Part shown: positions 15,765 to 50,416 of the stretch, one piece after another
Layout: each line of letters begins with the position of its first letter
How positions within the stretch are numbered: the stretch's first letter is position 1
Assembly (NCBI RefSeq): GCF_001187505.1
Contig: NZ_CP012150.1
Location: forward strand, 124,001-188,000
Direction: 5' to 3'
Origin: Mycolicibacterium goodii
GTDB taxonomy: Bacteria; Actinomycetota; Actinomycetes; Mycobacteriales; Mycobacteriaceae
Length of the DNA: 64,000 bases
Notes under the pieces: model-generated
Told to the model about the DNA's origin: nothing
The model's database searches: none
The model's input: only the letters and a program-made list of their open reading frames with translations
Program-made: the position numbers and the translations under genes

Positions 15765-15767
15765 TTG

Positions 15768-15830
15768 CGCCGACACTACGCTTTGTCGCGCTGAATCGGC
15801 TTTTTCTCGCCAACAACCGTAGCTTCGGCG
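15768..15830. repeat. Imperfect palindrome, 5' copy flanking DUF559 locus A
   Basis: Two 23-bp arms, 15768-15790 and 15808-15830, pair at 17 of 23 positions around a 17-nt loop. The right arm, read in reverse complement, contains GCTACGGTT and matches the 3' palindrome of this locus at 17 of 20 positions. It starts just after the PPK2 stop codon, so it may also act as a terminator. Confidence 0.6.
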
Positions 15831-15871
15831 ATCTTGGAACCGGATGCCCACGCCGTGCGTCGAATACCGGC

Positions 15872-16743
15872 ATGGGGGACATCATCGTGGGTAGCGAAGC
15901 GCTGGCCGGTGGCACGCTCACCCGGTACGCGTTGCAGCCGGTTACCGCAAACTGCACCGAAATGTCTACGTGCCGCGCGATTTCACGCTCGATGCCCGCA
16001 GTAGGGCAAGGGCGGCGTGGCTGTGGTCGGGACGCACCGCGACCATCGCCGGGTACTCCGCCGCGGCGATGCTCGGCAGCAAGTGGTTGCCGGACGACGC
16101 TCCTGCCGAACTCGCCCGCGTCCGTCACCCCTCCCCACCGGGCATCCGGATCCACACCGGCACCATCGCCGACGACGAGATCTGCGTCGTCGCCGGCATG
16201 AACTGCACCACTGCGGCCCGCACGGCCTACGATCTCGGCCGCCGGTTACCCGCTGAGACCGGGGTGATCCGCCTGGATGCCCTGTTAAACGCCACCAAAA
16301 CCGATGTCGCCGAGGTGATTTCGGTTGCCGAACGGTATCGCGGGGCGCGCGGCATCCGCCGGCTGCGCACCTCGCTGGATCTGGTTGACCCAGGTGCCGA
16401 ATCGCCGCAGGAAACCCGGCTGCGGTTGGTGCTGGTCCGGGCCGGCCTCCCGCGCCCGGTCACACAAATTCCGGTGCTCGACGGAAGCGGCCGCGTGCGG
16501 CGTCGCATCGACATGGGCTGGCCGGATCACATGGTCGGCGTGGAGTACGACGGTGCCCAGCACTGGCAGGACCCTGCCGCCCACGCATCAGACATCGACC
16601 GGCTGGAATTCCTGGCCGCGTCGGGCTGGACGATCATCCGGGTGAGCCATGAACATCTGCGGTACCGCGCGCATGCGGTCATCGCCCGCGTCACCCATGC
16701 CCTCCAACGCGCCGAGGCTACGGTTCTTCGCGCGAATTCGTGA
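15872..16743 (+). pseudogene. DUF559 endonuclease-like protein with N-terminal frameshift
   Basis: The paralogue at 47.7 kb gives the intact layout: a short N-terminal HTH-like (AbiEi_4-type) domain, a middle domain and a C-terminal DUF559 (Vsr-like, PD-(D/E)XK-fold) domain. Here the N-terminus MGDIIVGSEALAGGTLTRYA is in one frame. The rest (GYRKLHRNVYVPRDF onward) is in another. The switch falls near 15938, and one missing base would restore a full match in length. The C-terminal part is well kept: RIDMGWPDHMVGVEYDGAQH and DIDRLEFLAASGWTIIRVSH. A shortened protein could start at the GTG at 15970, lacking about 33 residues. It lies between two copies of one palindrome, and its last nine codons form an arm of the downstream copy. 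Confidence 0.75.
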
Positions 16744-16769
16744 GAATCACGCGAAGAACCGTAGCCTCG
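16713..16769. repeat. Perfect 20-bp palindrome, 3' copy flanking DUF559 locus A
   Basis: CGAGGCTACGGTTCTTCGCG (16713-16732) and its exact reverse complement (16750-16769) enclose a 17-nt loop that contains the DUF559 stop codon (16741-16743). It separates convergent genes and can work as a bidirectional terminator. Loop length and arm sequence match the 5' copy at 15768-15830, which plain terminators would not need. Confidence 0.75.
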
Positions 16770-16782
16770 ACGGAAGGAAAAC

Positions 16783-47250: not shown

Positions 47251-47628
47251 ATGAGCGTGAAAGTGGACCTCAAGCAGCTGGCCGACAAGCTGACGGACTA
47301 CACGTTCGCCTACCTCGTCACGGTCGACGACGACTACCACGCGCACACCGTCGCATGCGATCCCAGGCTGGTCGACGGCGTCCTCGACGTGGGCCCGGTG
47401 GGGGATCGCACGCGCAGAAATCTCGCACTGCACGACAACGTGACGCTCATCTGGCCGCCGCGCAGCCCGAGCGGGTTCTCACTGATCGTCGACGGTCACA
47501 GCCGCCCCGGCGGCAGCGACGGCGATGCCCCGCAGGTCGTGCCTGCCCGTGCGGTCCTGCACCGCAAGCGCTCCACCGGGCCGACCGCGGCGAGCATCGA
47601 CGACTGCGTGGTCTTGAGCGAGAACTAG
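47251..47628 (+). CDS. Pyridoxamine 5'-phosphate oxidase-like flavin/F420-binding protein
   Basis: 125 residues. The split-barrel core has [20 protein letters not shown] and [20 protein letters not shown], then a C-terminal strand AVLHRKRS. Mycobacteria have many such proteins that bind FMN, F420 or haem; the cofactor cannot be told here. The ATG at 47251 begins [13 protein letters not shown]. Its 3' end is 14 bp before the palindrome that flanks the DUF559 gene. Confidence 0.75.
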
Positions 47629-47642
47629 CCGGCCGCAACCGC

Positions 47643-47700
47643 CGAGCGTGGGGCCTGTGCACGCTTTTCGGCCGATTTGCGTGCATGAGGCCCACGGTCG
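47643..47700. repeat. Imperfect palindrome, 3' copy flanking DUF559 locus B
   Basis: Arms 47643-47664 and 47679-47700 pair at 17 of 22 positions around the 14-nt loop TTTTCGGCCGATTT. The 49-bp core (47648-47696) matches the copy at 48569-48617 at 36 of 49 positions in the same orientation, with the same loop length. It begins 3 bp after the last base of the neighbouring DUF559 gene. Confidence 0.7.
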
Positions 47701-47703
47701 AGC

Positions 47704-48537
47704 TCAGATCGGGCATCCCGCCGCACGGAGCTTGGCCCGTACCCGCTCGACGACCACATCCGGGCGCGTCAACATCTCCGCGCTCACCCGCACCACCACC
47801 CACCCGGCCTCTTCGAGCAGCGCGATCCGGTCGATGTCCCACGACCGCTGCCTGCGGTCCGACCAGTGCTGCACACCGTCGTATTCGACCGCGACCCGCC
47901 ACTCCCGCCACCCCATGTCGACGCGGATGTGCAGGTCGCGAAACTCGATCTGGGTCTGCGGCGCGGGCAGTCCCCCGCGGATCAGGACCATCCGCAGCCT
48001 GCTCTCCTGCGGGGACTCGGCACCGCCGTCGACCATGGGCAGCACCGCCCGCAGGCGCGCCACGCCGCGGGCCCCCGGGTGCGCATCGGCGACCGCGAGG
48101 ACATCGGCGGGTTTGGTGCCGGTGGCGTTGAGCAGGGCATCCACCAGCGGCACCGCGACCTCGGCGCGATGGAGCCTGCCGAGGTCGAACGCCGTACGCG
48201 CCGCGGTGGTGGCGTCCATCCCGGCGACCAGGCATGTCTCCCCCGCGCCGAGTGTCCAGGAGTGCGCGACGATTCCCGGCGGCGCATGCCGGTCGGCCCG
48301 GACGATCTCGGCGGGCAGATCGGGCTTCAGCCACTTCGTGCCGAGCACCGCGGCGGCCGAGGTACCGGCCAGGGGCGCACCCGTGGCCAGCCATGCGGCC
48401 TCGGCGCGGATGCGAGCGGTCACCTCGAGGTCCCGGGGAACGTAGACGTCGCGGTAGAGCGCTGTGTAGTGGCGGGCCAGTTGGCGTCGGGTGAGCACAC
48501 CACGGCGTACCGCCGCGCTTCCGATGAAGGGTTCCAT
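47704..48537 (-). CDS. DUF559 endonuclease-like protein, intact
   Basis: 277 residues from the ATG at 48537. The N-terminal HTH-like (AbiEi_4-type) domain is FIGSAAVRRGVLTRRQLARH, then ALYRDVYVPRDL. The middle domain has AAWLATGAPLAGTSAAAVLG and CLVAGMDATTAARTAFDLGR. The C-terminal DUF559 domain, related to very-short-patch and PD-(D/E)XK nucleases, has RVDMGWREWRVAVEYDGVQH (candidate Asp and Glu ligands) and DIDRIALLEEAGWVVVRVSA. Function is unknown. The gene lies exactly between two copies of a palindrome, as its frameshifted relative at 15.9 kb does with a different palindrome. Confidence 0.82.
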   Translation of the reverse strand: MEPFIGSAAVRRGVLTRRQLARHYTALYRDVYVPRDLEVTARIRAEAAWLATGAPLAGTSAAAVLGTKWLKPDLPAEIVRADRHAPPGIVAHSWTLGAGETCLVAGMDATTAARTAFDLGRLHRAEVAVPLVDALLNATGTKPADVLAVADAHPGARGVARLRAVLPMVDGGAESPQESRLRMVLIRGGLPAPQTQIEFRDLHIRVDMGWREWRVAVEYDGVQHWSDRRQRSWDIDRIALLEEAGWVVVRVSAEMLTRPDVVVERVRAKLRAAGCPI

Positions 48538-48568
48538 GCCCGCACGCTCGCCGGACCTACCGACGAAA

Positions 48569-48617
48569 GTGGGCCCCGTGCACGGTTTTCGGGTGATACC
48601 TGTGCACAGAGCCCACG
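48569..48617. repeat. Imperfect palindrome, 5' copy flanking DUF559 locus B
   Basis: Arms 48569-48585 and 48600-48616 pair at 15 of 17 positions around the 14-nt loop TTTTCGGGTGATAC. GTGGGC and GTGCAC are the conserved arm blocks. It starts 32 bp upstream of the DUF559 start and ends 9 bp before the groEL2 terminator's A tract, so a terminator role for it is not needed here. Confidence 0.7.
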
Positions 48618-48625
48618 CTGGGAAT

Positions 48626-48660
48626 GAAAAAAGCCCCGACGCGCGGAGCGCGCCGGGGCC
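48626..48660 (-). terminator. groEL2 Rho-independent terminator
   Basis: On the groEL2 strand a 12-bp stem (48648-48659 with 48633-48644, one mismatch) with a 3-nt loop is followed by six T (48627-48632). It comes 17 bp after the groEL2 stop. This is the clearest classical terminator in the window. Confidence 0.88.

Positions 48661-48676: not shown

Positions 48677-50416
<1,740 letters not shown>

Follow-up and report, generated by a model that had tools for sequence, protein, structure and literature searches.

The closest described counterpart of the locus reported here is the REP/REPIN-RAYT system, for which the available text of PMC2817692 and PMC3116915 describes a gene flanked by a pair of palindromes, coevolution of palindrome and protein, dispersal of cognate copies, and doublets as well as singlets of the palindrome. 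RAYT proteins are HUH/Y1 transposases, their flanking palindromes are inverted, and REP sequences carry GTAG. Among nucleases, Vsr partners a cytosine methyltransferase, and the protein of PDB 3r3p, which we take to be the Vsr-like homing endonuclease I-Bth0305I, is intron-encoded, unlike the gene studied here; we know of no palindrome family that belongs to it. The DUF559 PD-(D/E)XK domain is shared with Vsr and with Caulobacter VsrA, and the available text on the latter (PMC12907096) does not mention palindromes. Repeated structured sequences of similar size are on record in the same genus: the available text of PMC2267715 describes stem-loop repeat families of M. tuberculosis, including Myt-1 (72 nt, 75 members) and Myt-8, and lists them without a link to a gene. 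These two could be palindrome families of the kind described below. In the available text of the literature we searched, where coverage of subscription journals was partial (including PMC3733652, PMC2267715, PMC5217627, and PMC12907096), we found no published link of DUF559 genes to palindromes.

We analyzed a DUF559 gene that is bracketed by two palindromes and lies in a 64-kb stretch of mycobacterial DNA, hereafter the window, which refers to the whole stretch (Table 1). On its downstream side is a gene whose product we take to be a homologue of Rv0441c, and on its upstream side is presumably groEL2, as named in the initial annotation. The initial annotation had placed a palindrome at each end of the DUF559 gene and had counted 36 matching positions of 49 by hand. 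Both positions were confirmed, and a gapless 49-mer comparison reproduced the count exactly: the best match between the two flanking palindromes, at 47648 and 48569, has 36/49 identities, compared to a mean of 23.6 and a maximum of 33 for the same comparison on 396 random window pairs. Allowing up to one mismatch, GTGCACNNTTTTCGG occurs twice in the window versus 0.06 times expected. The exact sequence GTGCACNNTTTTCG occurs twice in the 7.1-Mb genome, both times in the flanking palindromes, and looser relatives of the palindrome are present elsewhere in the genome.

Each palindrome unit spans approximately 63 bp and thus exceeds the 49-bp core. On the plus strand, both units start with CGNCGA; at the opposite end, the downstream copy has the matching TCG and the upstream copy lacks it. 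The downstream unit ends 1 nt before the DUF559 stop codon (TCA at 47704-47706), and the upstream palindrome is located between the DUF559 start codon and the groEL2 terminator. Folded over 62 nt, the downstream copy is within the five most stable of 2062 window tiles, while the upstream copy is a weaker palindrome that ranks 275 of 2062 in fold stability. Direct and inverted alignments of the two whole units score equally (50 and 50); in the gapless 49-mer match, the two copies run in the same direction. A scan of the window for complementary arms in general was flooded by GC-rich chance matches and missed both palindromes of this gene; family comparison and a covariance model were used in its place.

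Table 1. Features of the two DUF559 loci in the window (window coordinates; C1, contig coordinates).
Feature	Position	Strand	Basis or remark
DUF559 gene, 277 aa	47704..48537	-	ORF; Pfam DUF559 above cut-off
Downstream-side palindrome of DUF559 gene	47640..47702	.	Covariance model match C1:171637-171706 (window 47637-47706), E 1.8e-7
Upstream-side palindrome of DUF559 gene	48561..48623	.	Covariance model match C1:172558-172627 (window 48558-48627), E 0.0016
groEL2 intrinsic terminator, separate from palindrome	48633..48649	-	Terminator prediction
Presumed Rv0441c homologue, downstream-side neighbor	47254..47628	+	Probe for orthologous site in other genomes
Presumed groEL2 ORF, upstream-side neighbor	48677..50407	-	Start codon uncertain
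Locus A, upstream palindrome of second window DUF559 gene	15765..15833	.	C1:139765-139833, E 5.3e-5
Locus A, DUF559 open frame (L002 865-1713), N-terminus apparently frameshift-interrupted	15895..16743	+	
Locus A, downstream palindrome, near-perfect, overlaps open-frame end	16707..16775	.	C1:140707-140775, E 8.5e-8

Placement beside stop codons, together with the hairpin potential, would suit palindromes that are ordinary bidirectional terminators or insulators kept alike by gene conversion, with the nuclease being irrelevant to them. Arguing against this, none of the four intrinsic terminators (a GC hairpin followed by a T run) predicted between 46000 and 51000 falls on either palindrome. The groEL2 terminator is distinct from the upstream palindrome, in agreement with the initial annotation. 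We regard the terminator explanation as very improbable, and further evidence that bears on it is given below.

The C-terminal part of the protein scores above the Pfam cut-off for DUF559 (25.7 vs 20.6 bits), and DUF559 and MTES_1575 are the only Pfam domains in the sequence. An AlphaFold2 model (mean pLDDT 94.8, pTM 0.90) predicts a helix-helix-strand-strand N-terminus, a strand-containing middle, and a helical stretch, followed over residues 176-272 by helix-strand-strand-strand-helix-strand-helix. We take this last order to be that of a PD-(D/E)XK nuclease core. The layout we read from the model is an N-terminal winged-helix-like (AbiEi_4-like) part, a middle part, and a C-terminal Vsr-like PD-(D/E)XK nuclease. 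Catalytic-type residues are conserved across 50 sequences (E178 50/50, D207 50/50, E218 48/50, D220 49/50, H224 49/50) and, along with the score above the curated cut-off, place the protein among the DUF559/Vsr-like nucleases. The solved structures nearest to the nuclease part, 3r3p (E 0.03) and 3hrl (E 0.06), are both weak sequence-profile matches. The Pfam domains, the absence of an H-x-H motif from the sequence, and the order of structural elements all differ from those of an IS200/IS605-type HUH/Y1 tyrosine transposase. In the search of solved structures, residues 114-168 showed a weak many-repeat likeness to TALE repeats; this likeness is a sum of sub-threshold repeats and probably reflects chance or helical-repeat similarity.

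The initial annotation had typed the protein as AbiEi_4/DUF559. The DUF559 assignment holds, whereas the AbiEi_4 N-terminus was detected in just one of the four own-genome DUF559 proteins scanned and the PADLOC AbiEi match of the window protein is weak (E 0.0032). No AbiEii toxin gene is adjacent, the neighbors being groEL2 and the Rv0441c homologue. The predicted helix-helix-strand-strand N-terminus, the similarity to AbiEi-like regulators, and the location of one palindrome ahead of the start codon would be consistent with palindromes that serve as operators, such that a winged-helix protein acts mainly as a regulator binding its own palindromes, with autoregulation from the upstream copy and the dispersed copies forming a regulon or insulator set. 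However, the second copy is located at the stop codon and the catalytic residues are conserved, and we consider the operator explanation unlikely.

A profile (A1) built from four own-genome DUF559 proteins identified 12 DUF559 genes in the genome. Based on alignment score and inspection by eye, seven have paired matching palindromes (L007, L037, L038, L039, L043, L046, and L047), four have a single clear palindrome (L040, L041, L042, and L044), and one (L045) has none. The palindrome arms are gene-specific and vary among these genes. One of the seven is the gene at locus A, which also lies in the window. Both of its palindromes are still recognized despite the apparent N-terminal frameshift in the gene. 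At another own DUF559 gene (L004), three tandem 81-bp palindrome-carrying repeats are found upstream (527-769) and one copy downstream (1684-1744).

Profile matches (E<=1e-10) are present in each of the 98 genus genomes sampled, with 1 to 19 per genome, and the gene is present in 70/81 sampled genomes of the order, covering 36 of the 41 sampled genera. We aligned upstream with downstream flanks at 78 non-redundant genus loci, excluding those with long runs of N or with duplicate or truncated flanks. The median score was 60, whereas mismatched pairs had a median of 33 and shifted windows of the same locus one of 36, and 37/78 loci exceeded the highest shifted-window value. In a set of 145 genus loci with near-full profile coverage, many of which are orthologues and hence not independent, 93 scored above the 99th percentile of upstream-downstream pairs mismatched between different sites, where 1.45 such loci would be expected, and significant flank similarity was absent at the other 52. 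This result bears out the expectation of the initial annotation that most homologous loci would carry paired palindromes. At the 93 significant loci, the flanks are direct in 60 and inverted in 33.

We also ran the covariance model on 42 of 43 loci from named genomes and MAGs (M. septicum, M. wolinskyi, M. rhodesiae, and others; L296, a partial match, was left out), some of which had already served for building it. A palindrome was found downstream of the gene at 38 loci, upstream at 28, and on both sides at 27, with one palindrome place away from gene flanks in 269 kb. At 25 loci outside the genus, the median score of matched flanks was 78 versus 38 for mismatched flanks, and 16/25 were above the 99th percentile (68); this comparison is one of alignment score rather than palindromicity, and some of the lower-scoring alignments resemble plain GC-rich similarity.

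We next compared palindrome type with protein similarity. Among pairs of genes at different sites, 71% shared palindrome ends when the proteins were at least 75% identical (n=14), compared to 20% at 65-75% identity (n=85), 4% at 55-65% (n=868), and 0.5-0.7% below 55% (n=8580). A Mantel test of palindrome against protein similarity, whose statistic ignores phylogeny, gave 0/300. By these comparisons, palindrome type tracks protein similarity. This covariation suggests that the DUF559 protein may recognize its palindrome, and families that are gene-specific and follow the protein argue further against ordinary terminators. Pairs at the same site with less than 55% protein identity still shared end similarity in 33% (n=12) and 27% (n=22) of cases, suggesting that the site also matters.

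We then considered whether the palindromes act as DNA or as RNA. G-U pairs should be tolerated throughout the stem of an RNA hairpin but not in a DNA palindrome. Across 36 palindromes aligned over a 15-pair stem, 86.7% of cells are paired, compared to 29-40% when the arms are slid, and both partners have changed in 14/15 pairs. Within the predicted stem (11 pairs), G-U occupies 6/396 cells and other mismatches 26, where approximately 5 G-U would be expected as ordinary mismatches. G-U is more common in the four pairs outside the predicted stem (14/144 cells), where all of it falls in three pairs (14/108). As the inner arms covary and G-U there is no more common than other mismatches, these statistics point to palindromes that act as DNA rather than RNA. 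The G-U frequency within the predicted stem also argues against terminators. The conserved ends of the 36 aligned genus palindromes are CGA and TCG, and GTAG is not the conserved end at either side of this alignment. Two other candidates were examined and rejected. For an RNA function, the Rfam match at the locus was sub-threshold (23.6 bits; gathering 52) and the pair statistics favored DNA; for phage or plasmid cargo, the records recovered (2 phage and 6 plasmid) were all below 60% identity.

To locate palindromes away from genes, we searched with a covariance model (R1) built from 36 flanking palindromes and biased to some palindrome families. At E<=0.01, the window's own genome has at least 35 palindrome places, 10 of them beside DUF559 genes and at least 25 elsewhere; these counts are lower bounds, with 150 of 4024 first-look candidates scored. 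We compared 32 solo palindromes (down to E 0.071; gene-adjacent places and place 6651296 excluded, and G077 flanks left out) with flanks of nuclease genes. For 24/32 solos, an own-genome nuclease-gene flank was a better match than any of 126 foreign-genome flanks. The remaining eight were better matched by a foreign flank (L166, L169, L170, L175, L176, L188, L191, and L198). For L166, L169, and L176, the better foreign flank sits at a site orthologous to that of the own family's gene (sites by eye), and L191 fits no own-genome palindrome family. L191 aside, the best own match assigns eight solos to the family of the window gene, seven to that of L040, six to L042, five to L039, two each to L037 and L043, and one to L047.

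Copy-to-copy identity in four families is mostly 0.7-0.9 in the arms and approximately 0.25 outside, with a more variable center. The high identity in the arms and its drop outside indicate that the dispersed unit is the palindrome alone. According to a crude ORF call, 19 solos are mostly intergenic, and four (L169, L171, L180, and L181) are located between convergent genes, which argues against operators. Scattering of the same palindromes at unrelated genes, which the initial annotation had taken as grounds for refuting a self-flanking element, does occur. However, 24/32 solos are closest to an own-genome nuclease gene, as a RAYT-like system predicts.

Genomes with few genes provide a simpler view of the pairing. 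The 28 loci fetched from G106, a genome of another taxonomic family with one gene match, contain the palindrome at 17 distinct places, the gene's own flank included. These places include 12 near-full copies and at least 3 single arms, with no similarity beyond the unit. The arms at L247, L250, and L251 are self-palindromic single arms alongside the two-arm copies, and that of L247 lies within a longer perfect palindrome. G083, also with one gene match, has two flanking palindromes and four further places (scores of 70, 62, 48, and 38 to the flanks). A genome with several genes can still yield few matches to R1, with its bias to some families, as in G056 (8 genes, 2 matches).

No R1 match was found in 10 of the 11 order genomes without a gene match. 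We rejected the use of gene-less genomes as a negative control for the link, as R1 was also empty in two gene-bearing genomes, G160 and G167, whose genes are divergent; the zeros in gene-less genomes therefore show only that R1 rarely matches by chance. In G161, a genome of another taxonomic family in which no DUF559 gene was detected, there are four palindrome places of one family (L337-L340). This speaks for a gene that has been lost, missed, or has diverged, or else against a strict gene-palindrome link.

Many features are shared with REP/REPIN-RAYT systems as the available text on those systems describes them: extragenic palindromes are dispersed in the genome, several families coexist in one genome with each tied to one gene, the gene is flanked by two palindrome copies, palindrome and protein coevolve, and the two-arm copies and single arms of G106 resemble REPIN doublets and REP singlets. 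The resemblance to RAYT transposases with flanking REPs that the initial annotation had seen at a single locus is therefore a family-wide pattern, with similar flanks that track the protein and relatives dispersed in the same genome. The DUF559 system differs in its enzyme (a Vsr-like PD-(D/E)XK nuclease that also has a winged-helix-like part), in the CGA/TCG ends of the genus unit, and in flanks that are more often direct than inverted. As it has neither HUH chemistry, GTAG ends, nor consistently inverted flanks, it is not a RAYT.

We think it quite likely that every DUF559 protein serves one ~60-bp DNA palindrome family as its dedicated nuclease, in an arrangement like that of REP/REPIN-RAYT with an unrelated enzyme. 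It also seems fairly likely that mobile palindromes of this class extend throughout the order: a Vsr-like PD-(D/E)XK nuclease would spread its own palindrome family as a convergent counterpart of REPIN-RAYT, with several nuclease-palindrome pairs per genome and a separate recognition sequence for each.

At a typical locus, the gene has its own palindrome on either side, and other copies of it lie dispersed between unrelated genes. We hypothesize the following mechanism. The N-terminal winged-helix-like part may recognize the palindrome arms. The palindrome could extrude as a DNA hairpin or cruciform, for example on single-stranded DNA during replication, and the PD-(D/E)XK domain would then nick it close to, or exactly at, its conserved CGA/TCG ends. 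A released or copied hairpin might be repaired or joined elsewhere, so that a further solo palindrome arises. The pair of palindromes around the gene is probably a mark of the ancestral unit, and regulation of the gene may be another of its roles.

This nuclease-palindrome pairing looks like an unrecognized kind of spreading-repeat system in mycobacteria and related bacteria. It would provide a function hypothesis for a very common protein family of unknown function, account for a set of dispersed palindromes, and represent a REP-like life style that arose independently. The many natural nuclease-palindrome pairs could serve as a source for learning recognition rules.

To follow the gene at one site, we read 30 loci probed with the Rv0441c homologue. 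The DUF559 gene is inside the groEL2 junction at seven, in one orientation at all seven, which fits inheritance in place. At 13 loci, groEL2 is within reach and the junction has no such gene; at the other 10, groEL2 is outside reach. By eye, the gene-less junctions contain a solo palindrome (6/13; L091, L092, L094, L104, L110, and L117), a terminator only (3/13; L096, L099, and L103), a nuclease-like gene (L095 and L109), or other inserts (L112 and L116). L104 has a DUF559 gene on the far side of the Rv0441c homologue, outside the junction. The nuclease-like genes of L095 and L109 are more divergent, fall below profile reporting at E<=1e-10, and have no obvious palindromes.

Solo palindromes at gene-less sites, and the weak profile match between the nuclease domain and the mobile intron protein of 3r3p (E 0.03), could also be explained by homing, in which the palindromes are targets that precede the nuclease gene and the gene inserts into or next to them. 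At this one site, however, five gene-less junction solos (L104 excluded) score just 29-40 against the seven gene-bearing junctions, and we consider homing improbable. Compared with the DUF559 loci of their five genomes, the same solos reach best scores of 50-68 (48 for one). For G018 and G017, the best locus is in the same genome as the solo; for G021 and G020, it is tied with another genome, and for G040 it is elsewhere. The own-genome match of the G021 solo is approximately 700 nt from the gene. Judged by these scores, the five typed junction solos appear to belong to families other than that of the groEL2-site gene, a lineage-specific placement that also favors the dedicated-nuclease reading.

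The term self-flanking element used in the initial annotation does not imply that the gene itself jumps, the junction genes being in one orientation in 7/7 cases. Under the dedicated-nuclease model, the gene would be mostly inherited in place and the palindromes would spread in trans. In our collection of one genome per species, we saw neither an insertion with exact junctions nor a target-site duplication. L172, a solo beside a serC-like gene, has by eye no counterpart in 18 same-genus relatives (L308 over 71 nt only), at a site that is not a clean empty site, as the far-side gene also differs in the relatives. At C1:3064563-3065313, two palindromes of the window gene's family (L163 and L198) bracket a DHFR/RibD-like gene that neighbors a gene for a YchF-like GTPase (both named by eye), and the bracketed gene is possibly cargo or part of a composite unit.
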